Notes: a model not told the origin generated them from the sequence alone. A stretch of DNA of 38,405 bases from an uncultured cyanobacterium (GCA_903882285.1 CAIRWM010000129.1:1-38405), one strand, 5' to 3'; positions 11,337 through 24,123 are shown, counted from the stretch's first letter. Made by a program: numbers and translations.

Positions 11337-12092
11337 TCAGCTGGAGACGATCCTCTGGAACATGTAGCCCAGCCCCCGGGCGGTGAGGATCAGTTCGGGG
11401 TTTTCGGGATCGCTCTCGAGCTTGGCCCGCAACCGCGACACATGGACATCAACCACCCGGGTGTCGGCGTGCCGCTCGGGGGTGTAGCCCCAGATCCGGG
11501 TGAGGATGTCGGCGCGGCTCAGAGGCTCTCCTGAGCGGCTCAGCAGCAGTTCCAGCAAGCCGAATTCCATCCCGGTGAGCCGGATCCGTTCCTCGCCGCG
11601 GAACACCTGCCGCTTGACCGTGTTGATGCGCAGTCCGCCCACTTCGATGCCCTGGGCGCTGGCGGGTCGTGCCCCGCTGCCCGCCGCCGTCGCCGAAGGC
11701 ACCCGGCGCAGCACGCAGCGGATGCGGGCCTCCAGCTCCTTGGGGCTGAATGGTTTCATCAGGTAGTCGTCGGCGCCCAGTTCGAGGCCAAGGATCCGGT
11801 CCTTCACCTCGGAGAGCGCGGTGAGCATCACGATCGGCACCTCGGAGGTCTTGCGCAGCTCCTGCACCACGCCGTAGCCATCCAGCTTCGGCATCATCAC
11901 GTCGAGCACCACGAGGTCGGGCTCCTCGGCATGGAACGCGGCCAGGCCTTCCTCGCCGTCGGCGGCCGTGACCACCCGATAGCCCGCCATGGCGAGACGG
12001 GTTTCCAGGATGCGGCGGATCGAGGCCTCGTCGTCGACGACGAGGATCGTGCCCTTGCTGTCGGAGCCGGTGGCGGGAGTGGAGGGGTTCAT
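11337..12092 (-). CDS. rpaB: OmpR/PhoB-type response regulator, RpaB-like (251 aa)
   Basis: Two-component DNA-binding regulator. The receiver domain (residues 14-128) has the acidic pocket Asp20/Asp21, phosphoacceptor Asp64 in LVVLDVMMPKLDGYG, Thr91 and Lys113 in DDYLMKPFSPKELEARIR. The winged-helix domain (about 145-250) has RLTGMEFGLLELLLSRSGEP and the recognition stretch YTPERHADTRVVDVHVSRLR. The stretches ILVVDDEASIRRILETRL and NPELILTARGLGYMFQRIV are those of RpaB/Ycf27, which represses high-light genes and couples phycobilisomes to photosystems. Positions such as LMKPF and GLGYMF differ from the RpaB I remember, and the location inside an accessory block is unexpected, so it may be a paralogue rather than the essential copy. 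No cognate kinase is nearby. The last gene of a leftward cluster, 11 bp after the 226-aa protein. Confidence 0.72.
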   Translation of the reverse strand: MNPSTPATGSDSKGTILVVDDEASIRRILETRLAMAGYRVVTAADGEEGLAAFHAEEPDLVVLDVMMPKLDGYGVVQELRKTSEVPIVMLTALSEVKDRILGLELGADDYLMKPFSPKELEARIRCVLRRVPSATAAGSGARPASAQGIEVGGLRINTVKRQVFRGEERIRLTGMEFGLLELLLSRSGEPLSRADILTRIWGYTPERHADTRVVDVHVSRLRAKLESDPENPELILTARGLGYMFQRIVSS

Positions 12093-12103
12093 GGGGCGGT
12101 ACC

Positions 12104-12784
12104 TCAGGCCTGGGCCGGCTCTTCGGCCTGCTTGAGGGAGGGATAGGTAGAGCGGGTGAACTCCGCCACCTCTTGTCGGATCCTGGCCCGGAAGGCGCCG
12201 GCGTCGTCGGCCGCCAGTACCGGGTAATCGGTGGCGCCGGCCTGGGCGTCGCCCCGCAGCGGTTTCCAGTTGGTGGGGCCCTGCTGGCGCAAGGCCTCGA
12301 GGGGGGCGGCGAAGTCGTAACTCTCGGTGCGGCCCAGGGCGGCGGCCTCGCTGGCCCAGCGCTCGCGAGCCGGCAGGAACTCCCTGGCCTTCAGGGTGTC
12401 GGGCAGGCCCAGCACCGGCTCGTACTGATCGAGGGCCGCCAGCTCCTCCTCCAGGATGATCGGCCAGGCTCCGACTTCGCCCTCCGCCAGCCCCTGCTCC
12501 AGGGCGCTGGCCCGCATGGCCTCGAGGTGGAACGCCAGCCAGCGGTAGTGGGCCTTCTCCTGGGTGCTCTTCCTGGCGTTGCCCCGGCCGGAGGCGGCCC
12601 GTCGGGGCAGGGCCGCCTCGGCCTTGCGCAGGAAGATCCTCTCCTCGCGCTCCAGGTTGATGGCGCCCCAGCGCTGGCGGTACTCCCACAGTTCTTCGTA
12701 GCTGCGCACGTCCTCGGCACTCCAGCCAAGGGCCCGCAGTTCTTCTGCCCGGCTTCCCTCTTCCATCCGCGTCCAACACTCCAT
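12104..12784 (-). CDS. Unknown charged helical protein (226 aa)
   Basis: I do not recognise a family. The protein is soluble with no signal or membrane segment, rich in Glu, Ala, Arg and Trp, and predicted mainly helical. Residues 8-60 (EELRALGWSAEDVRSYEELW, then EERIFLRKAEAALPRR) and 70-140 (KAHYRWLAFHLEAMRASALE, then EEELAALDQYEPVLGLP) look like packed helices. The C-terminal third is less regular and ends EFTRSTYPSLKQAEEPAQA. An alternative ATG six codons in (12764-12766) gives MEEGSRAEELR and may be the true start. It lies 44 bp after the Nif11-like gene and 11 bp before the RpaB-like gene, so co-transcription with the regulator is likely. The tight pairing suggests a functional link with that regulator, but this is inference only. 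Confidence 0.65.
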   Translation of the reverse strand: MECWTRMEEGSRAEELRALGWSAEDVRSYEELWEYRQRWGAINLEREERIFLRKAEAALPRRAASGRGNARKSTQEKAHYRWLAFHLEAMRASALEQGLAEGEVGAWPIILEEELAALDQYEPVLGLPDTLKAREFLPARERWASEAAALGRTESYDFAAPLEALRQQGPTNWKPLRGDAQAGATDYPVLAADDAGAFRARIRQEVAEFTRSTYPSLKQAEEPAQA

Positions 12785-13961: not shown

Positions 13962-16103
13962 GTGCTCCGACGCGTGCAGGGCCCGAGCCGCGGCCATCCC
14001 AGCCCGCTCCCCCCCCGTCAGCGGCTGATCCTCGCCGGTGGGGGGCACAGTCATGCCCTGGTGCTGCAGATGTGGCGGATGCGGCCGGCCCTGCGGCCCG
14101 CCGCCACGGAGGTGGTGCTGGTCAATCGCGCCAGCACGGCCCTCTATTCCGGCATGGTGCCGGCGCTGGTGGCCGGTCTCTGCAGGCGCGAGGCCTGTGC
14201 CATCGACCTGCGGCGTCTCTGCGCACTGGCCGGCGCCACCTTCGTGCAGGCGGAGATCCGTGGCCTGGATCTCCGGGCCCGGGAGTTGGCGCTGGCCGGC
14301 CGCCCACCGCTCCGCTTCGACCGCCTCAGCCTCGACGTGGGGGCGCAGACCGCGGCTCCCTCCGGTGCTTTGCCCGTGAAGCCGCTTGAGCCCTTCCTGG
14401 CCTGGAGTGCGGCCTTGGCTCCCGGGCGCGTGCTGCGCCTGCGGGGCGGTGGGGCGGCGGCCGTGGAGCTGGCCCTGGCGTTCCGGGCCCGTGGCTTTGC
14501 GCCACGGCTGCTTCTGCGGGGGCGGGAGCTGCACCTCGGCTCCGCCGCTGCCAACCGGGCCGGCGAGCGGCTGCTGGCCGAGGCCGGCATTGCCGTGGAG
14601 AGGGAGGTGGCTGATGGGGTACTCGCCGACCTGGCCTGCACCGGTAGTCGGGCACCGCAGTGGCTGGCCGCTGCCGGGCTGCCGGTGGATCCCGCCAGTG
14701 GCCGGGTGCTCACCGAGGCCACCCTGGCGGTGTGCGGCCACCCCGATCTGTTCGCCTCCGGCGACTGCGGCCTGATGGCCACCGCGCCCCGCCCGGCCTC
14801 CGGGGTCTGGGCCGTGCGGGCGGCCCCCGAGCTGGCCACCAATCTGCGCCGCAGCCTGCGCGGCGAAGCGCTGCGGCGCTGGCGGCCCCAGTCCCGGGCC
14901 TTGCAACTGCTGGGGGATGGGGGGCTCGATCCGGGCGGCCCGCGCGCCTTGGCCTGCTGGGGGGCGCTGGCCCTGGGGCCGAGCCGCTGGCTCTGGCGCT
15001 GGAAGGCGCACATCGACCGGCGCTTCATGGAGTGCTTCGCAGTGCCGGCAACACAGCCGCCCCCCACGGGATCGGCGCTGGCCTGCCGCGGTTGTGCCGC
15101 CAAGCTCGCCGCCCGTCCGCTGGAGGGGGCGTTGCGGCGGCTGGATCCACTTGGGGGCTCTCCTCCGCGGGACGACGCGGTGGTGGTGGCCGCCGCCGCC
15201 GATGGTGCCCTGTTGCTGCAGAGCGTGGATGGCTTCCCCGCCCTGGTGGAGGATCCGTGGCTCAATGCCCGGCTCACGACCCTTCATGCCTGCAGTGACC
15301 TCTGGGCCTGCGGTGCCGCGGTGGAGAGCGTGCAGGCCCTGGTGACAGTGCCGGCGGCGGCCCCCCACCTGCAGGAGGACGTGCTGGTGCAGACCCTGGC
15401 GGGGGTGCGCTCGGTGCTGGAGCCGCTGGGCGCGCACCTGCTGGGCGGCCACACCCTCGAGGGGCGCGATGGCGCCGGGCTGACGCTGGCCCTCACGGTG
15501 AATGGCCGGGTGCGGCCGGAGCGTCACTGGCCCAAGGGCCCCCTGCGGCCCGGCGATGCTTTGCTACTCAGCCGCCCCCTCGGTAGTGGGGTGCTGTTTG
15601 CCGCAGCCATGGCAGGGGCGGCCGAGCCCGGTTGGCTCGATGCGGCGCTGGAGCTGCTGCTGCAGAGCCAGGCCCCCTTGGTGGAGCTGCTATCGCACCA
15701 TGGCTGTCATGCCTGCACCGACATCACGGGTTTCGGCCTGCTGGGTCACCTCGGTGAGATGGTGGCCGCCTCCCCAGCATGGAAGGTCCGTGTGGCGCTG
15801 GATGTCGCCGCCTTGCCGGCCATGGCCGGTGCCCTGGAGGTTCTGGAGTGCGGCTTCGCCAGCAGCCTGGCCCCCTCCAACGCCGAAGCCCTGGCGCTGC
15901 TGGCCGGGCCGATCCAGTTGGCGTCGCCGCCCGGGGGAGACGCCAGCCCGATGGCGGCGGCCCGTCAGGCCCTGCTGATCGACCCCCAGACCTGTGGACC
16001 GCTGCTGGCGGCCCTGCCCGCGGCACGGGCTCCCGCGGCCCTGGCGGCGATGCAGGCAGCCGGTTTTGAAGGCGCGGCCATCATCGGCCGGGTGCTTGTC
16101 TAG
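13962..16103 (+). CDS. selD: NDH-like flavoprotein fused to selenophosphate synthetase SelD (713 aa)
   Basis: Two enzymes in one chain. Residues ~20-350 are a pyridine-nucleotide-disulfide oxidoreductase of the NADH dehydrogenase type: LILAGGGHSHALVLQMW (FAD-binding), ALYSGMVPALVAG, DLFASGDCGLMA (second FAD motif GDC). Residues ~365-713 are SelD, making selenophosphate from selenide and ATP: ACRGCAAKL holds catalytic Cys378 and Lys381, then PRDDAVVV, DPWLNARLTTLHACSDLWACGA, LLGGHTLEGRDG, TDITGFGLLGHLGEM. The active site has Cys, not selenocysteine. There is no ATG that fits; GTG at 13962 or 13974 are the likely starts. It ends in TAG. NDH-SelD fusions are known in cyanobacteria and some other lineages; the flavoprotein half may supply the reduced selenium or link it to redox state, which is inference. 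It converges on mnmH. Confidence 0.94.
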   Translation: MLRRVQGPSRGHPSPLPPRQRLILAGGGHSHALVLQMWRMRPALRPAATEVVLVNRASTALYSGMVPALVAGLCRREACAIDLRRLCALAGATFVQAEIRGLDLRARELALAGRPPLRFDRLSLDVGAQTAAPSGALPVKPLEPFLAWSAALAPGRVLRLRGGGAAAVELALAFRARGFAPRLLLRGRELHLGSAAANRAGERLLAEAGIAVEREVADGVLADLACTGSRAPQWLAAAGLPVDPASGRVLTEATLAVCGHPDLFASGDCGLMATAPRPASGVWAVRAAPELATNLRRSLRGEALRRWRPQSRALQLLGDGGLDPGGPRALACWGALALGPSRWLWRWKAHIDRRFMECFAVPATQPPPTGSALACRGCAAKLAARPLEGALRRLDPLGGSPPRDDAVVVAAAADGALLLQSVDGFPALVEDPWLNARLTTLHACSDLWACGAAVESVQALVTVPAAAPHLQEDVLVQTLAGVRSVLEPLGAHLLGGHTLEGRDGAGLTLALTVNGRVRPERHWPKGPLRPGDALLLSRPLGSGVLFAAAMAGAAEPGWLDAALELLLQSQAPLVELLSHHGCHACTDITGFGLLGHLGEMVAASPAWKVRVALDVAALPAMAGALEVLECGFASSLAPSNAEALALLAGPIQLASPPGGDASPMAAARQALLIDPQTCGPLLAALPAARAPAALAAMQAAGFEGAAIIGRVLV

Positions 16104-16110
16104 CCCAGCG

Positions 16111-16125
16111 GGCCCGGATCGGGCC
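16111..16125. terminator. Short hairpin between the convergent selD fusion and mnmH
   Basis: GGCCCG-GAT-CGGGCC, a 6-bp perfect GC stem with a 3-base loop, in the 30-bp gap between two convergent stop codons. A bidirectional stop is expected here, but there is no T run on either strand. Confidence 0.35.
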
Positions 16126-16133
16126 GCGGCCCC

Positions 16134-17174
16134 TCAGGCGCGCAGCACCAGCCGCCTGGCCAACAGCTCCTCGGCGGCAGCCGAGGCCTCCAGCTTCCCC
16201 AGATCCACCGAGGCGCCTTGGTGCTCGCGTAGCTCGTGGTCGTAGCAGCGGTCGTAGTAGTCGAGCATCTGGCGGCAGGCCGTGGCCCAGTCGCCCCGGT
16301 CGATCGCCTCCAGGGCCAGGGCCGTGCGCTGGGGACCGAGCCGTCGGGCGATGCGCTGGGTGGCCTCGGCCAGGGCCTGCGGCTCCTGGACGCCGTAGAT
16401 GCGCACCAGATGCGCCACCCGCTGGTCGATCGGCCGGCGCACCTCCAGCACCGGGGACTCCCGCATCTGACGCCACAGGCCCGCCGGGATGCGGCAGCGT
16501 CCCACCTGGGAGCTTTCGGCCTCCAGCCAGATGGCGTTGGCGCCCGCGAGGGCATGCAGTTCGGTTGCGATGCGATTCTCGTAGTGCTCGCTGCTGGGCT
16601 GGGGCGGTAGGCCCAGGGCGCCGAAGCTGCTGCCGCGGTGGTGGGCCAGCCCCTCAAGGTCCACCACCGCTACGCCCCGCTGTCGCAGCGCCAGCAGCAG
16701 CTCCGTCTTGCCGCTGCCGGTGCGTCCCCCGAGCAGGCGCACCGGCCAGGGGCGTTCGAAGCGCTCCAGCACCCAGCGGCGGAAGGCCTTGTAGCCCCCC
16801 GGCAGCAGCTGCACCGGCAGCTCGAGGGTGCCCGCCAGCCAGGTGACGCTGCCGGAGCGCATGCCACCGCGCCAGCAGTGCAGCCGCAGTGGCTCGCCGG
16901 GGGTGGCAGCGGCGTGCCTCTCCAGTTCTGTCGCCATCGATTCGAGCCGCGGGCCCACCAGGGCCAGACCGCGCCGGACCGCCGCCGGGCGGCCATCCTG
17001 TTTGTAGAGCGTGCCGATCTCGGCCCGCTCGGCGTCGCTGAACAGGGGAAGGTTGATGGCGCCGGGGATATGCCCCTGGGCGAATTCCGCCGGGCTGCGC
17101 ACATCCAGCAGGCTGCCGCGGCCCGCCAGGAACCCTTCCAGGCTGGGTGCTTCGATGTTGGGCAATGACCCCAT
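16134..17174 (-). CDS. mnmH: tRNA 2-selenouridine synthase (346 aa)
   Basis: Also called SelU or YbbB. It replaces sulfur by selenium in 2-thiouridine at wobble position 34 of Lys, Glu and Gln tRNAs, using selenophosphate. Residues 10-135 form a rhodanese domain with LLDVRSPAEFAQGHIPGAIN and the catalytic Cys100 in LHCWRGGMRSGS. Residues 145-346 are a P-loop domain with GGRTGSGKTELL at 149-160 (Walker A) and a downstream WLEAESSQVGR. ATG at 17172-17174 gives MGSLPNIEAPS; the frame is open another 34 codons but without support. The length matches the family. It converges with the selD fusion that supplies its substrate and diverges from the transporter genes (67 bp between starts), which fixes the function of the locus. 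Confidence 0.95.
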   Translation of the reverse strand: MGSLPNIEAPSLEGFLAGRGSLLDVRSPAEFAQGHIPGAINLPLFSDAERAEIGTLYKQDGRPAAVRRGLALVGPRLESMATELERHAAATPGEPLRLHCWRGGMRSGSVTWLAGTLELPVQLLPGGYKAFRRWVLERFERPWPVRLLGGRTGSGKTELLLALRQRGVAVVDLEGLAHHRGSSFGALGLPPQPSSEHYENRIATELHALAGANAIWLEAESSQVGRCRIPAGLWRQMRESPVLEVRRPIDQRVAHLVRIYGVQEPQALAEATQRIARRLGPQRTALALEAIDRGDWATACRQMLDYYDRCYDHELREHQGASVDLGKLEASAAAEELLARRLVLRA

Positions 17175-17241
17175 GGCGATGGGCACGGGCGGCACTACCC
17201 AGGCAGACGACCTGGCAGACATAGTGGGACAGAGCCTCAGG

Positions 17242-18195
17242 ATGCCGATGCCGATCCGCCTTCGCGCCACCGCCATGGTGGCAGGACTCTCTCTCGCTCT
17301 GGTGCCGCTGTTGGCACCCCTGACGGGCGGCCCGGGTGCTGGTCTGCCGCCTGCCCTGGCTCAGCAGAGCCAGGGGCTCAAGGTGCTGCGCATCAGTGCG
17401 ATCCCCGATCAGAAGCCTGAGAAGCTCAATCGGCTCTACCCCCTGGTGGCCCAGGAACTGAGTCAACAGCTCGGGGTGACCGTGAAGTACGTGCCGATGG
17501 TCGACTATCCCGCCGCCGTGAGTGCCTTCCGCACCGGCGATCTGGATCTGGTCTGGTTCGGTGGCCTCACCGGCGTGCAGGCCCGCCTGCAGAAGTCCGG
17601 CGCGAAGGTGGTGGCCCAGCGTGACATCGATGCCTCCTTCAACAGCATCTTCATCGCCAGCACCCGCAGTGGCCTCCAGCCCTTCCGCCAGCAGAAGGGG
17701 CTGACCAGCCTCAAGGGCCGGCGCTTCACGTTCGGCTCCGAGAGTTCCACCTCCGGTCGCCTGATGCCCCAGTACTTCCTTACGCAGGCGGGGGTCAAGC
17801 TGAGTGATTTCGCCGACGGTGCCCCGGGGTTCAGCGGCAGCCATGACGCCACCATCGCCCTGGTGTCGAGCGGGGCCTACGACGCCGGCGTGGTCAATGA
17901 ACAGGTGTGGCTCTCGAGCCTGAAGGATGGCAAGGCCAATCCCACCAAGGTGATCGCTCTCTGGAAGAGTCCCGGCTATCAGGACTACCACTGGATCGCC
18001 CAGCCCAACCTCGATCAGCGCTTCGGCAAGGGCTTCAGCAGCCGCCTGACCAAGGCGATCCTGGCCTGGCGGCCCAGCGATCCCAAACAGAAACAGATTT
18101 TGGAGCTGTTCGGCGCCCAGAAATTTGTGCCAGCCAGTGCCTCCTCCTACGGGCGAATTGAGCAGGTGGGCCGCCAGATCGGCAAGATTCGCTGA
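17242..18195 (+). CDS. PhnD-like ABC substrate-binding protein, putative selenate/selenite type (317 aa)
   Basis: Periplasmic solute-binding protein of the phosphonate/phosphite (PhnD/PtxB) superfamily. A signal peptide occupies about residues 1-40 (MPMPIRLRATAMVAGLSLAL, cleavage near ALA-QQ). The mature protein has LRISAIPDQKPEKLNRLYPL, VKYVPMVDYPAAVSAFRTGD and LVWFGGLTGVQARL, typical of the superfamily, and FGSESSTSGRLMPQYFL, the ligand-binding loop. The clade placed by context next to selD and mnmH is annotated in public families as a putative selenate ABC transporter binding protein (as I recall, TIGR04553). No phn catabolic genes are nearby, so selenium oxyanion is the most likely cargo; phosphonate, phosphite or arsenate-like anions remain alternatives. 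ATG at 17242; the ATPase gene follows 36 bp later. Confidence 0.85.
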   Translation: MPMPIRLRATAMVAGLSLALVPLLAPLTGGPGAGLPPALAQQSQGLKVLRISAIPDQKPEKLNRLYPLVAQELSQQLGVTVKYVPMVDYPAAVSAFRTGDLDLVWFGGLTGVQARLQKSGAKVVAQRDIDASFNSIFIASTRSGLQPFRQQKGLTSLKGRRFTFGSESSTSGRLMPQYFLTQAGVKLSDFADGAPGFSGSHDATIALVSSGAYDAGVVNEQVWLSSLKDGKANPTKVIALWKSPGYQDYHWIAQPNLDQRFGKGFSSRLTKAILAWRPSDPKQKQILELFGAQKFVPASASSYGRIEQVGRQIGKIR

Positions 18196-18231
18196 CCCTC
18201 TGCCCTCCGGCAGCGCCTGCGCTGATTGCCG

Positions 18232-18999
18232 ATGCCTCCCCTGCTGGACCTGCAGCACATTCACGTGGCGGGACGGGATCAGCCTCGGCTCCACGATGTG
18301 ACTCTGGGCATCACCGCCGGGGAGCGGGTGGCCCTGCTGGGTCCCAGCGGCGCTGGCAAGAGCACCCTGCTGGCGGTGGCCAATGGCCTGCTGACACCCG
18401 AGGCCGGCACGGTGCTCTGGAGTGGCGAGCCCCCGGCGCGCTCGCCGCGGCTGCGGCGGCGCCAGAGAGCCCGCATCGGCACCCTCTGGCAGGACCTGCG
18501 CCTGATCGAGGAGCTGACGGTGCAGCAGAACCTCAATGCAGCGCGCCTGGCCCGCTGGGGCTGGCCGCGGGCCCTGCTCAACCTGCTGCTGCCGCTCGAG
18601 AGCGAGGCCAATGCCGCGGCGCTGGAGCAGGTGGGTCTCGGGGCGGAGCTGCTGGCCTGCTCCGTGGCGGCCCTCTCCGGTGGGCAGCGGCAGCGGGTGG
18701 CGATCGCGCGCCTGCTGCGCCAGGAGCCGCAGCTGCTGCTGGCGGACGAACCCCTCGCCAGCCTCGACCCGCGGCTGGCCACCGAGTTGCTGGAGCTGCT
18801 GCTCCGCCAGGCGGAGGCGCCGCGGGCCCTGCTGCTGAGCCTGCACCGGCCCGATCTACTGCGGGGATTTGATCGGGTGGTCGGCCTCCGCCGGGGGCGG
18901 CTCCTGTTCGACCGGCCGATGGCGTTCCTGGCCACCAGCGAGCTCGAGGCGCTGCTCGCTGAGCTCTACCGGGGCGAAGCGGTTGGGCTGATGCCATGA
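18232..18999 (+). CDS. ABC transporter ATPase, PhnC-like (255 aa)
   Basis: Cytoplasmic ATPase of the importer. Walker A is LGPSGAGKSTLL (about residues 36-47), Q-loop is in IGTLWQDLRLIEELTVQQN, the signature is ALSGGQRQRVAIARLL and Walker B is LLLADEPLASLDPRL, followed by the switch His in LLLSLHRPDLL. ATG at 18232 is preferred over a TTG two codons upstream. Its last four bases overlap the start of the permease gene (ATGA), so the three transporter genes form one operon. Closest in style to phosphonate-type importers; the cargo is inferred from the selenium neighbours. Confidence 0.93.
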   Translation: MPPLLDLQHIHVAGRDQPRLHDVTLGITAGERVALLGPSGAGKSTLLAVANGLLTPEAGTVLWSGEPPARSPRLRRRQRARIGTLWQDLRLIEELTVQQNLNAARLARWGWPRALLNLLLPLESEANAAALEQVGLGAELLACSVAALSGGQRQRVAIARLLRQEPQLLLADEPLASLDPRLATELLELLLRQAEAPRALLLSLHRPDLLRGFDRVVGLRRGRLLFDRPMAFLATSELEALLAELYRGEAVGLMP

Positions 19000-20582
19000 G
19001 CACCGCCCCGCTGAGTCAGCCCTACCCACTGGCCTTGCTGCGGCCGGCGGCCCCGCTGCTGCCACTGCTGCCGGCCCTGGTGCTGCTGCCGGTGCTGGCG
19101 CTGCTGCCGGGGCTTGTGCATGGGGGTGGCTGGGATCTGATCGGTCGCTTTGCCCTGGCGGCGCTCACCCCCTCGCTCGATCCGGTTGTGATTCAGGCGG
19201 CCCTGGCGGGGTTGGCGATCACCCTGGGGATGGCGCTGCTGGGCTGGATCGCCAGCCTGGCGCTGGGAGTGGTGCTCGGCCTCGCCAGCTCGCGCGTCGT
19301 GTGGCAGGTCTGCGGCGGTTGCCGCTGGCCGGCGGGCATGATCCGGCGCCTGCTCGCCCTGCCCCGCTCCATTCATGAACTGCTCTGGGGGCTGCTGCTG
19401 TTGCAGCTGGTGGGGCTGCAGCCGGTGGTGGCGGTGCTGGCGATCGCGATTCCCTACGGCGCCCTCGTCGCCCGGGTGCTTGCCGATCTCCTCGACGGCC
19501 TCGACAGTCGCCGCCTGGAGGCCCTGCGCAGCGCCGGTGCCCCGGCGCCCGCCGCCCTGCTCACCGCCCTGGGTCCACCCCTGCTGCCGGGCCTGCTCAG
19601 CTATGGCGGTTACCGGCTGGAGTGCGCCCTGCGCAGTGCCACCCTCCTCGGGGTGTTCGGTCTCGGCGGGCTGGGCACTGACCTCAAGCTCACCCTGCAG
19701 TCCCTGGAGTTCCGTGAGCTGTGGACGGGGCTGTGGCTGTTGCTGGCCGTGATGCTGACGCTGGAGACGCTGCTGGGCTGGTTGCGCCGCCGCTGGCTGA
19801 TGCCCCGCCGCCTCGATCTGCGCCGTGGCGGCGTGGGCGGTCGCGGCCGCGAGATGCTGTTGCTGCTGCTGGCCCTGCCTCCCCTGGCACTCCTGGTCGG
19901 CCGGGCTCTCGGGGTCGATCCGCAGGCACTGCTGCACGGGCAGCCGCTGCCCGGACTGGACTCGGCCGACTGGGCCGGTGTCTGGGCTCTGCCCTGGCTG
20001 CAACTGGTGGCCGGCACTCTGCTGCTGACGCTGCTGGCCGCCGCTCTTGCGGTGGGCCTGGCCCCCCTGCAGCTGTTGCTGGCCGGGCCCGGGCGCTGGG
20101 GGCAGGGGGTGCTTCGCTTCTCCTGGGCCCTGGGCCGCCTCTGGCCGCCGCCGCTGACGGCACTGCTGCTGCTGTTTCTGCTTCAGCCCGGAGTGATCAC
20201 AGCGGCCCTGGCCCTGGGCTTCCACAACCTGGGCATCCTCGGCCGGTTGCTGCTGGAGAGCAGTGAGGATGTTGGACCCGCGGTCGAGGAGGCCCTCTCC
20301 TGCGCTGGCAGCGGACCGCGGTTGGCCCTGCTCTACGGCCGTCTGAGTCCGATGGCCCGTCCCTACCTGGCCTATGGGGCCTACCGGGCCGATGTGATGC
20401 TGCGCGAGACCGTGGTGGTGGGACTGGTGGGGGCGGCGGGTCTCGGCAGCCAGTTGCTCGAGAGTCTCAGTGCCTTCGCCTGGGATCAGGTGCTCGCCTT
20501 GGTCGCTGTCTATGCCCTGCTCACCCTGGCGGGGGAGGAGCTCAGCGACCGGCTGAGGCGATCACTGCTGGCCGGCCACTGA
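18996..20582 (+). CDS. ABC permease with two fused PhnE-type units (528 aa)
   Basis: Inner-membrane channel of the importer. The chain holds two complete permease units. Unit 1 is about residues 55-270, with the coupling (EAA) loop RRLEALRSAGAPAPAALLTA and LRSATLLGVFGLGGLGTDL. Unit 2 is about residues 330-520, with VEEALSCAGSGPRLALLYGR and LRETVVVGLVGAAGLGSQLL. The two coupling loops and the G-x-x-GLG endings repeat the same layout, so one polypeptide supplies both halves that usually come from a homodimer. It overlaps the ATPase gene by four bases. No separate permease gene is present. About ten or more membrane helices are evident from hydrophobicity. Confidence 0.92.
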   Translation: MSTAPLSQPYPLALLRPAAPLLPLLPALVLLPVLALLPGLVHGGGWDLIGRFALAALTPSLDPVVIQAALAGLAITLGMALLGWIASLALGVVLGLASSRVVWQVCGGCRWPAGMIRRLLALPRSIHELLWGLLLLQLVGLQPVVAVLAIAIPYGALVARVLADLLDGLDSRRLEALRSAGAPAPAALLTALGPPLLPGLLSYGGYRLECALRSATLLGVFGLGGLGTDLKLTLQSLEFRELWTGLWLLLAVMLTLETLLGWLRRRWLMPRRLDLRRGGVGGRGREMLLLLLALPPLALLVGRALGVDPQALLHGQPLPGLDSADWAGVWALPWLQLVAGTLLLTLLAAALAVGLAPLQLLLAGPGRWGQGVLRFSWALGRLWPPPLTALLLLFLLQPGVITAALALGFHNLGILGRLLLESSEDVGPAVEEALSCAGSGPRLALLYGRLSPMARPYLAYGAYRADVMLRETVVVGLVGAAGLGSQLLESLSAFAWDQVLALVAVYALLTLAGEELSDRLRRSLLAGH

Positions 20583-20618: not shown

Positions 20619-20828
20619 GTGGTCGGCTGTGAACTGGCGAGACTGGCAGCCGTTTCCCCGTCGCCGCGTCCCTTGAAACCGCTGCTCCCCAGCCTAACCG
20701 TTGTTCTGCTGGGCAGTCTGCTGATCTCACTGCTGCTGGCCGCGCTGGCGGGCTGGGGGGTGGCTCTGGCCTGCTTTCTCACCCTGCTGGCGGGGGGCCT
20801 TGTGGTGCTCTCGATCAATCGGCAGTGA
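20619..20828 (+). CDS. Small two-helix membrane protein (up to 69 aa), unknown
   Basis: The frame starts with GTG at 20619 and encodes a short basic lead, then LLPSLTVVLLGSLLISLLLA and LAGWGVALACFLTLLAGGLVVLSINRQ, two adjacent membrane helices with a short turn. The true start may be further in, at a TTG before KPLLPSL. It follows the permease by 36 bp and overlaps the end of the convergent CheB-CheR gene by 14 bp. No family recognised. It may belong to the transporter operon. Confidence 0.45.
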   Translation: MVGCELARLAAVSPSPRPLKPLLPSLTVVLLGSLLISLLLAALAGWGVALACFLTLLAGGLVVLSINRQ

Positions 20829-23800
20829 CCGTCGGCAACTCCCGCACGATCACCCGCAGCACCGCCGTGCCGATCGGCCGCGGCAGCCCGCGGATCTCCA
20901 GCACCACCCTGGGCTGGGAGCCGTCGCGGTGCTGCAGCCGAAGGTTGCAGGGCACGTCGCTGCCGGGCGCAGCCAGGGCCGCGTTTAGGGCGGCCTTCCA
21001 GGCCTCTTCGTCCGGCAAGGAGATCAGCGTCGGCGCCGGCACTCCCTCCAGCGCCGCCGCCCCCATGCCCACCAGCTGGCCGATGCGCTCATTGGCCATC
21101 AGCACGCGTCCCTGGACGTCGAGCACCAGCACGCCGAAGCTGCCGGTGTGGAAGACCGACTCGAAGATGCTGGCGCTGTCCCGGGCCTGCTCCTCGATCG
21201 CCCGCCGCTCGGTCACATCGGTGAGGGTGCCGACCACGAAGTGGTCGCTGCCCTCGTTCATCACCTTGGCCGCTTCCACTATCCAGCGCATCTGGCCGCT
21301 GCGGGTGCGGATTCGGTACCGGACCGACCAGCCATCGCGGCAGATGTCCCGGCTCTCCTCCACACGCTCCCGATCGGCCGGGTCGATCGCCGCATCGAGC
21401 AGGGTAGGTCGGTCGCAGAGTTCCTGTGGACTCCAGCCCGTTAGAGCCTGGATGCGCTTGCTGGCATAGAGCATCCGCCGCATCGAGAGGTCGCGTTTCC
21501 AGACGGCCTCCTCGAGGGCATCGGTGAGGCGGGCGAACTCACTCAGAGTCGCCTCGGCCGCCCGGCGCAGCGCCACCAGCTCGAAGACGTCGGTGAGCGT
21601 CACGATCGCGCCCAGGCGTCGGCCGTTGCGCTCCTGATAGGGCAGCACCTGGGCCAGGTACGACACCTCCTCGCTGCTGGCTTCGATGCTGCGGCGGGCT
21701 TCTCCCGCCACCACGGCCTGGAGCGCCTCGCGCAGCCCCGGCAGCGGCACCGTGGTCGGCACCCCCAGCAGGGGCTGGCCCAGGTCAGTGTCAACGAGGC
21801 CGAACACCCGCACTGCCAGGGGCGTGAAGCGCGTCACCCGCAGCTCGCTGTCGACCATCACCATCCCCTGGCTCAGGGAGTTCTGGATGTTCTCCAGATC
21901 AGTGTTGAGCAGTTGCAGTTCCTCGCTGCGGGCGCGCAGCTGCTGGTTCAGGGTGCCGAGTTCCTCGTTGGTGGCCTGCAGCTCCTCGTTGGAGGCCTCC
22001 AGCTCCTCATTGGACGACTGCAGTTCTTCGGACGAGGCCTGCAGCTCCTCCGCGGACGCCTCCAGCTCCTCGTTCGCTCCTTCCAGCTCAGCGAGGGAGC
22101 GCCGTAGCGAGTCCTGGCTGGCCAGCAGTTCCCTCTCCAGCCGTTCGATTTCCCGGTCGAAGGTGGCATCCCGGTCATCGCTGCCGGCACCGGAGCTGGG
22201 GGGATGCAGTTCCGGAGTGCCCAGCTCCGGCACGAAGGAGAGCAGGGTGAACGGCCGCGTCCCCACCGGCAGCGGCCGCGCCTCCAGGTGGAGGGGGGCC
22301 GGGATCCCGTCCAGCTGCAGCAGTGCGCTGCGCACGGGGCTCTTGTCGGCGCGGGCCAGGAGTAGCAGGGCCCGGGCCTGAGCCTGCAGCTCCGGCCGCA
22401 GAAAGGCGGTGGCGGCGCTGCTGGCGCGGCCCTGAGGCAGCCGGCAGTAGGGCGCCACATCGCCGATCACTTCTACAAGATCGTGGTGTTCGTCCAGCAC
22501 CAGGCAGGGGGGGCCGACATGGCGCACGAGGGCCTCCAGCAGGGCCACGTGCTGCTCCGGCACCGATTCGCGTACCACCTTGATCAGCCCCATCGGAGCC
22601 AAACCGTCGGTCGGGTAGGCGGACTTCAGGGTCACGGGGGGCTGCAGGCGGCCGCCCGCTTCGCTGCTGCGCCGGTAGATGCGGTGCTCCGCATCGGCCA
22701 CGCAGAACCCGGGGGTGCGGTTGCCGAGCGATTCGGAACTCCCCATAAACAGCAGGCCGCCGGGCTGAAGGCCGAACCGGAACAGGCTCAGCACCCGTTC
22801 CTGCAGGGGTGGGGTGAAGTAGATGAGCGTGTTGCGGCAGCTGATCAGGTCCAGCCGGGGGAAGGGCGGGTCCTCGCTCACGTTGTGCCGGGCGAAGACG
22901 GCACAGTCGCGCAGGGTCTCGCGGATCTCGATCCAGCCACTGCTCTCGATCACGAAGCGCTCGCGCAGGGCGCTGGGGATCGCCGCCGCGGCGGCGGCCG
23001 GGTAGAGGCCGCGGCGGGCCACCGCCAGGCTGCTCTCATCGAGGTCGGTGCCGAAGATCTTCAGCTGGGAGGAGAGCTGGAGCGGGTGGCCGAGCACCTC
23101 GCTCACCACCATGGCCAGCGAGTAGAGCTCTTCGCCGGTGGCGCAGCCCGGGACCCACAGGCGCAGGCGCTCACTGGAGCCGCGCTCCCTCACGCAGCGG
23201 GCCAGCAACTCCTGCAGGGCCTCAAAGGCCTGCGGATCCCGGAAGAAGGAGGTCACTGTGACCAGCAGGTTGCCCATCAGGGCCTGCGGTTCTCCCTCGT
23301 CGCTGGCCAGCAGCGGCAGGTAGTCCTCGAGGTGGCTGACCTGGCGGATCGCCATGCGGCGCTGCACCTGGCGCTGCAGCGTCGATTCCTTGTATTGGGA
23401 GAAGTCGATGCCGGTGGCGTGTTTCAGCTGGGCCGTCACCGAGCCGAGCGGCACGGGTTCGGGTAGGGACAGGGCCCGGCCGATTCCCTCCTCCCCGGAG
23501 CGGAGCAGGTCCCCCAGGCGCCGACCGATCAGTCCGGCTTCCAGGCAAAGTTCAGCGCTGCCCAGGCTCAGGGCGGCCCGGGGCATGCCGTCGAACTTCG
23601 CCTCTTCGGGGGACTGCACCACCGTGAGGCCCCCGGCCGTCCGCACGGCCAGCAGCCCCCGGGCTCCATCGGAGCCCGTGCCGGAGAGCACCACGGCCAC
23701 CCCCCGCTCTCCCCAGTGCGTGGCGATCGACTCGAACAGCAGGTCGACGCTCGGGCTCGGTCCATAGCGCGGCACCGGATCGCTTATGCGCAGCCGATCG

Positions 23801-24123
23801 CCCTCCACCACCACATCGTGATTGGGGGGGGTGATGGCGATCACATCGGGGCGCAGGGTCATGGCATCGTGCGCCGTGACCACCTCGAGGCGCGTGCCCC
23901 GGGCAAGCAGGTCGACGATCAGGCTGGGATGGTCCGGTGCCAGGTGCTGCGCCACCACATAGCTCGCTCCGCTGCCTGGCCGGAGCTGGCTGGTCAGGTC
24001 CTGCAGGGCTTCCAGTCCACCAGCCGAGGCGCCGATGCCCACGACGCGGCTGACCGGGAACGGTCCGGTCGTGCTGGGGTCCGGGGAGGCGCCGTCTGAC
24101 GAGCGGGCCGAATGTTCCACCAC
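20815..24123 (-). CDS. CheB-CheR-PAS hybrid signalling protein (1102 aa)
   Basis: A soluble multidomain protein. Residues 25-205 are a CheB methylesterase domain with the triad Ser33 (GIGASAGG), His60 (VVAQHLAPDHPS) and Asp152 (LSGTGSDGARG). Residues ~225-480 are a CheR methyltransferase with VTSFFRDPQAFEALQELL and the SAM site LWVPGCATGEELYS. A long coiled coil follows at about 640-745, made of repeated EELQASSEEL-like heptads. After it come three PAS/PAC-like domains (about 750-860, 870-990, 1000-1100). There is no receiver, histidine kinase, GGDEF or HTH domain, so the output is unclear. CheB-CheR-PAS chains usually feed a kinase; none is encoded here. GTG start at 24121-24123. It is not next to chemoreceptor or other che genes. 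Confidence 0.94.
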   Translation of the reverse strand: MVEHSARSSDGASPDPSTTGPFPVSRVVGIGASAGGLEALQDLTSQLRPGSGASYVVAQHLAPDHPSLIVDLLARGTRLEVVTAHDAMTLRPDVIAITPPNHDVVVEGDRLRISDPVPRYGPSPSVDLLFESIATHWGERGVAVVLSGTGSDGARGLLAVRTAGGLTVVQSPEEAKFDGMPRAALSLGSAELCLEAGLIGRRLGDLLRSGEEGIGRALSLPEPVPLGSVTAQLKHATGIDFSQYKESTLQRQVQRRMAIRQVSHLEDYLPLLASDEGEPQALMGNLLVTVTSFFRDPQAFEALQELLARCVRERGSSERLRLWVPGCATGEELYSLAMVVSEVLGHPLQLSSQLKIFGTDLDESSLAVARRGLYPAAAAAAIPSALRERFVIESSGWIEIRETLRDCAVFARHNVSEDPPFPRLDLISCRNTLIYFTPPLQERVLSLFRFGLQPGGLLFMGSSESLGNRTPGFCVADAEHRIYRRSSEAGGRLQPPVTLKSAYPTDGLAPMGLIKVVRESVPEQHVALLEALVRHVGPPCLVLDEHHDLVEVIGDVAPYCRLPQGRASSAATAFLRPELQAQARALLLLARADKSPVRSALLQLDGIPAPLHLEARPLPVGTRPFTLLSFVPELGTPELHPPSSGAGSDDRDATFDREIERLERELLASQDSLRRSLAELEGANEELEASAEELQASSEELQSSNEELEASNEELQATNEELGTLNQQLRARSEELQLLNTDLENIQNSLSQGMVMVDSELRVTRFTPLAVRVFGLVDTDLGQPLLGVPTTVPLPGLREALQAVVAGEARRSIEASSEEVSYLAQVLPYQERNGRRLGAIVTLTDVFELVALRRAAEATLSEFARLTDALEEAVWKRDLSMRRMLYASKRIQALTGWSPQELCDRPTLLDAAIDPADRERVEESRDICRDGWSVRYRIRTRSGQMRWIVEAAKVMNEGSDHFVVGTLTDVTERRAIEEQARDSASIFESVFHTGSFGVLVLDVQGRVLMANERIGQLVGMGAAALEGVPAPTLISLPDEEAWKAALNAALAAPGSDVPCNLRLQHRDGSQPRVVLEIRGLPRPIGTAVLRVIVRELPTVTAD

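Follow-up and report, generated by a model that had tools for sequence, protein, structure and literature searches.

A PhnD1-type transporter encoded beside SelD and MnmH in a picocyanobacterium: a probable importer of selenium oxyanions

A 38,405-nucleotide stretch of DNA from an uncultured cyanobacterium (GCA_903882285.1, CAIRWM010000129.1:1-38405; here termed the window, at its full length) carries at positions 13962-20582 a cassette of five genes, encoding an oxidoreductase fused to selenophosphate synthetase (SelD), the tRNA 2-selenouridine synthase MnmH, and a PhnD-type binding protein with its PhnC-type ATPase and PhnE-type permease (PhnDCE). We propose that the five genes form a complete module leading from selenium to tRNA, in which PhnDCE is most probably an importer supplying SelD and MnmH with a selenium oxyanion, most likely selenite. 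An original prediction made from the nucleotide sequence had read the cassette as a system for selenium-oxyanion uptake, and that interpretation gains support from two sets of observations: the co-occurrence of the binding-protein clade with intact selenium genes (14/14 genomes bearing the clade vs 4/73 lacking it), and the recurrent linkage of the transporter to such genes.

In the pathway we envisage, the binding protein, the ATPase and the fused permease would act as an ATP-binding cassette (ABC) importer bringing in the oxyanion; selenite would be reduced to selenide inside the cell, possibly with the help of the oxidoreductase half fused to SelD; and SelD and MnmH would use the imported selenium to make tRNA selenouridine. 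Reduction of a selenium compound for SelD was proposed as the role of that oxidoreductase half in 2008 (BMC Genomics, PMC2432076).

Results

Orthology of the binding protein with PhnD1

The binding protein (17242-18195, plus strand) scores 305 bits against NCBIfam TIGR04553, named "putative selenate ABC transporter substrate-binding protein" (cut-off 250), and 109.8 bits against the phosphonate-binding PhnD family TIGR03431, well below the 261.1 needed for membership. By these scores, and with no ptxD or PhnJ gene nearby and no PhnJ anywhere in the window's own assembly, the earlier description of an importer that is phosphonate-like yet not a phosphonate system holds. An AlphaFold2 model (predicted local distance difference test score, pLDDT, 93.6) finds its best structural match in 7s6g (Z 34), the PhnD1 of MITS9220, with which the protein shares 66% identity; identity to 5LQ5 is 52%. 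On alignment, every published ligand contact of PhnD1 is kept and the two pockets are identical; the window protein is an orthologue of PhnD1. Throughout the TIGR04553 clade the STS motif, the His and the capping Tyr of the pocket are invariant, and Asp203 is nearly so.

Members of TIGR04553 branch apart from the PtxB-type proteins that were found (support 96/92 for TIGR04553, in a tree that places one proteobacterial PtxB on a long branch). The gene ptxD adjoins this sister clade in five loci (L139, L141, L143, L144, L145) and is absent from the window cassette. In the four cyanobacterial PtxB-type proteins whose genes adjoin ptxD, STS is preceded by Ala, Asn174 is replaced by Ser or Ala, and Gln-Tyr-Pro stands for Asp-Tyr-His; the window protein has Asp-Tyr-His, and Ser before STS.

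The clade is nested among selenium users

Co-occurrence was counted in 87 genomes of the class, all from outside the window's family. The TIGR04553 clade was present together with MnmH and SelD in 14 genomes and without them in none; it was absent from four genomes having both enzymes and from 69 without the pair (p=6e-13). Both enzymes are intact in all 14 clade-bearing genomes. The same four counts are 12, 0, 4 and 39 by genus (p=4e-9) and 11, 0, 2 and 14 by family (p=6e-6); these values treat taxa as independent, the one by family being the safest. In two families (f9, f12) the clade also comes and goes with the selenium genes. PhnD homologues scoring below the cut-off, taken as a control, had no association with selenium genes in the same genomes (3/53 vs 1/20, p=1). 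The original prediction had named, as the finding that would count against it, a clade occurring mostly in genomes without selD; the distribution is the opposite.

Linkage to selenium genes recurs in several arrangements

Four arrangements join the clade to selenium genes. In the window's genus the order is selD> <mnmH phnDCE>, whereas another genus, as well as loci L070, L094 and L099, has phnDCE> <mnmH. Sphaerotilus carries a one-strand operon, mnmH-phnC-phnE-phnD-selD, and in Paracoccus marcusii, P. liaowanqingii and P. aestuarii phnDCE stands beside the formate dehydrogenase genes fdnG-fdxH-fdhE and selA. A scan of genome contigs yielded cyanobacteria only; proteobacterial relatives were taken from plasmid records, the search being limited to those replicons. 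SelD was also found on two clade-bearing records, a chromosome-sized one of Aeromonas and a Rhodobacter replicon. An association of TIGR04553 with selD, mnmH or selA is thus seen in the neighbours of the window gene, in the 14 genomes counted above, and in Sphaerotilus and Paracoccus. On the Paracoccus plasmids (L133, L140, L169, L171), genes for an acyl-homoserine-lactone synthase and LuxR lie directly downstream of the transporter.

The selenium enzymes of the cassette

The SelD fusion (13962-16103, plus strand; GTG at 13962 is a possible start) has an N-terminal flavin/NADH oxidoreductase-like domain followed by selenophosphate synthetase, scores 875.9 bits against TIGR04369 (cut-off 700) and 184.8 against TIGR00476 (cut-off 125), and is conserved in 11 relatives. 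Alignment to the SelD proteins of Aquifex and E. coli bears out the cysteine earlier assigned to the active site: the catalytic Cys and Lys lie in CAAK, identical to the SGCAAK of Aquifex SelD, and the Asp-bearing motifs DDA, SVDGF, SDLW and TDITGFG are retained. Score, Cys-x-x-Lys and Asp motifs together place the protein with SelD; one usual motif residue differs, Asn87 of E. coli being His in the window. An AlphaFold2 model of the fusion (pLDDT 53) was not used. Seven genomes of the same phylum, outside the class (G156, G165, G175, G178, G199, G202, G150), have SelD genes with one in-frame TGA, which probably encode selenocysteine-containing SelD. In a Prochlorococcus-like genome of two contigs (G061), PhnD and MnmH are present and profile searches did not find the SelD fusion, through either a gap or real loss.

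MnmH (selU/ybbB; 16134-17276, minus strand) exceeds both curated cut-offs, with 394.7 bits against NF008750 (241) and 362 against TIGR03167 (219.75); its likely start is an ATG near 17174 rather than 17276. The genome search agrees with the earlier failure to see selA, selB or selC: among 20 related genomes SelA had no match and SelB none over the cut-off, and in the window's own assembly, which is 90% complete, the highest-ranking hit for tRNA-Sec proves to be a tRNA-Ser. Selenouridine is therefore the only use of selenium visible in this host, a role for the SelD fusion and YbbB of cyanobacteria already proposed by Romero et al. (2005; Genome Biol, PMC1273633). The forecast that the importer serves selenouridine alone fits the cyanobacteria, but does not extend to Paracoccus, where the same clade serves selenocysteine users. 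In another cyanobacterium (G321), mnmH and selD are both pseudogenes (C1 999918-1000739 and 1389335-1390249), from which it appears that selenium use is being lost there.

Layout of the cassette and its surroundings

All five genes lie where they had been placed, with short gaps. MnmH is encoded on the minus strand, a detail missing from the original prediction, so that its gene is tail-to-tail with selD (gap about 30 base pairs, bp) and head-to-head with phnD (about 70 bp with the start at 17174; the two reading frames overlap if mnmH starts at 17276). The ATPase gene phnC (18226-18999, plus strand) follows phnD after 30 bp; its product belongs to PF00005 and is closest to PhnC, the best TIGR02315 score being 162 bits, below the cut-off of 266. 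A gap of -4 bp leads to phnE (18996-20582, plus strand), where two PhnE stretches in one chain of 528 residues (TIGR01097, 230.7 bits vs 216.7) make a fused double permease. Because the order selD> <mnmH phnD> is kept in many relatives of the window's genus, we regard the arrangement as beyond chance.

The divergent region between mnmH and phnD (17175-17241) contains CATAGTGG at 17220-17227, part of CCATAGTGGANCAA, which is conserved in this region in seven loci of the genus (among them L046 9207-9220, L079 9824-9837 and L086 9828-9841); when the window was shuffled 100 times, 31 of the shuffles gave at least one match. This single motif hints weakly at a possible shared promoter or operator. 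An Rfam scan of the window found no riboswitch or other RNA apart from one tRNA.

The host is a picocyanobacterium according to its search placement in a family with Cyanobium, Synechococcus, Vulcanococcus and Prochlorococcus as its named members; a gene for RpaB lies just upstream of the cassette, within 11337-12779. On the other side the cassette is adjoined by a gene for a CheB-CheR-PAS fusion protein of 1102 residues (20815-24123). In a sub-clade of the window's genus, phnD and phnC are separated by a ChaN-like gene (LLGERHD motif) together with a gene for a short-chain dehydrogenase (L046 10298-11374, L079 10918-12003), and in one genome of the same genus (G010; L161 7726-14250) phnC and phnE are intact and the binding protein is gone.

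Discussion

Ligand of the transporter

The orthology with PhnD1 brings a body of published biochemistry to bear on the ligand. PhnD1, which every one of the 97 picocyanobacterial genomes in one database encodes (PMC10284923, PMC5700983, PMC8786288), binds phosphite best, at 0.05-4.3 uM in close homologues; dissociation constants (KD) for phosphate are 7-182 uM, a preference for phosphite of about 6- to 3500-fold, methylphosphonate is poorly bound, and binding of hypophosphite was not measurable in the Synechococcus proteins (PMC10284923, PMC5700983). The tested strains did not grow on phosphite or methylphosphonate, and their phnD1 genes were not induced by phosphorus starvation (PMC10284923, PMC5700983). 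The pocket grips three oxygens in a trigonal arrangement; an Asp accepts a ligand proton and a Tyr closes over the fourth position (PMC10284923, PMC5700983). The authors concluded in 2023 that PhnD1 serves a constitutive phosphate transporter, an earlier structural paper having described its function in vivo as unknown (PMC10284923, PMC5700983). The string "selen" is absent from the main text of PMC10284923, PMC5700983 and PMC8786288; because selenium ligands go unmentioned there, the tight binding of phosphite does not refute a role in selenium uptake.

We favour selenite because a pocket cradling three oxygens as a trigonal pyramid under a Tyr cap suits selenite's own shape, which is like that of phosphite. 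The alternative that PhnDCE imports selenate, as the NCBIfam name of TIGR04553 has it, or an organic selenium compound we judge improbable, although linkage to selenium genes is silent on the chemical species. Selenate is shaped like sulfate, and seawater contains far more of the latter. In the published screen PhnD1 was stabilised by phosphorus sources only, sulfur compounds being without effect, and according to the S-edge data no sulfate was bound (PMC10284923); moreover, the proton-accepting Asp (PMC5700983) suits HSeO3- and disfavours unprotonated selenate. Since selenate resembles sulfate and sulfur sources leave PhnD1 unaffected, and given this Asp, selenite seems a better guess than selenate; organic selenium compounds would meet a small capped pocket that shuts out bulky groups. 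The Asp argument separates selenite from selenate and does not firmly separate it from phosphite, because reported pKa values of selenous acid vary. For the second, one value is about 8.3. Another is 6.6 (PMC4284032).

Phosphorus-based and other explanations

Several observations weigh against selenium-oxyanion import. The published affinity is for phosphite, and phosphate co-purified with the protein of 7S6G; selenite, with its lone pair, is unable to make the P-H...pi contact that has been described for phosphite; and our search of the literature found no test of a selenium ligand on any member of the clade. Co-occurrence has no power inside the window's own family, where almost every genome has PhnD, MnmH and the fusion (each above its cut-off in 146-147 of 150 genomes). 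Seven searched genomes have MnmH and SelD without the clade (G023, G115, G141, G254, G291, G310, G316), so that selenium users either do not strictly need the importer or have substitutes for it. G010, the one family genome lacking phnD, mnmH and selD, lost them in a single stretch; we rejected it as an independent coupled loss, since ChaN-phnD-mnmH-selD disappeared contiguously, replaced by other genes, in one event. The neighbour of phnDCE in most picocyanobacteria is a GDSL esterase gene (tesA), which is within reach in 51 of 80 phnDCE loci, as against 17 for selenium genes, with both in three (those with mnmH), and several Rhodobacterales plasmids bear the clade with no SelD or other selenium gene on that replicon.

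One alternative is the 2023 proposal that PhnDCE is a constitutive, medium-affinity importer of inorganic phosphate, next to which the selenium genes would be incidental. The measured phosphate affinities, the phosphate in crystal 7S6G and the linkage of tesA to phnDCE all speak for it (PMC10284923), and the last is seen again in our loci. We nevertheless think it unlikely: phosphate is needed by all bacteria, which leaves the nesting of the clade within selenium users unexplained; linkage to selD, mnmH or selA recurs in unrelated bacteria; and the proteins favour phosphite over phosphate. That phosphite or a small phosphonate is itself the substrate, as the best measured ligand might suggest, is very improbable, given strains that grow on neither phosphite nor methylphosphonate, a clade with no ptxD beside it though the PtxB clade has one, and an assembly without PhnJ. 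Equally remote is a reading in which no selenium is used, the fusion not being a selenophosphate synthetase and MnmH only geranylating 2-thiouridine: the NCBIfam name "fusion_not_SelD" would fit it, as would the geranylation of which MnmH is capable (PMC12177912), but intact MnmH and full-length SelD co-occur in class-level genomes, and the CxxK and Asp motifs are intact here, whereas the oxidoreductase-SelD fusions of two genomes without MnmH and the importer clade (G263, G347; L164, L165) have lost both CxxK and TDxTGFG.

Implications of the proposed selenite import

Taking selenite import further, we lean towards the stronger proposal that Prochlorococcus and Synechococcus have in PhnDCE a high-affinity importer dedicated to selenite, which would be the first in bacteria, binding phosphite only as a mimic of selenite. 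Reviews of 2022 (PMC9312934) and May 2026 (PMC13188914) and a study of 2024 (PMC11097638) state that prokaryotes have no known transporter that is specific for selenium and of high affinity. The family label TIGR04553 is not new; its connection to the experimentally studied PhnD1 of picocyanobacteria appears to be, our literature search having found no paper that joins the two. If the proposal is true, almost all of the Prochlorococcus and Synechococcus genomes examined encode a selenium importer, the retention of a "phosphite" importer that these cells cannot use is explained, and selenium joins the nutrients to be considered in the ecology of picocyanobacteria. The proteins have already been purified and crystallised.

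Comparison with known systems

The closest counterpart of the cassette transporter is PhnD1/PhnDCE of Synechococcus and Prochlorococcus (7S6G, 7ZCK, 5LQ5, 5LQ8), which has an orthologous binding protein with its contacts kept and the same ATPase-permease set; the published reading is phosphate or phosphite, whereas the window cassette adds mnmH and selD and its clade tracks selenium genes. With TIGR04553 the window protein shares membership above a curated cut-off, but the family name says selenate where we argue for selenite. PtxB, of the PtxABC-PtxD system, shares the fold of the window protein and its cradle for the oxyanion (STS, His, capping Tyr) and differs in its neighbouring ptxD, the Gln-Tyr-Pro of its cyanobacterial members and its separate branch. 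The oxidoreductase-SelD fusion and YbbB/MnmH described earlier from cyanobacteria are the same two enzymes, with the same proposed role in selenouridine, and the accessible parts of those papers contain no linked transporter (PMC1273633, PMC2432076). Finally, the arsenate- and arsenite-binding proteins ArrX and AioX share the fold (Z 24 and 22) and, though their ligands are arsenic compounds and their identity to the window protein is about 22%, provide a PhnD-like precedent for the binding of a non-phosphorus oxyanion.

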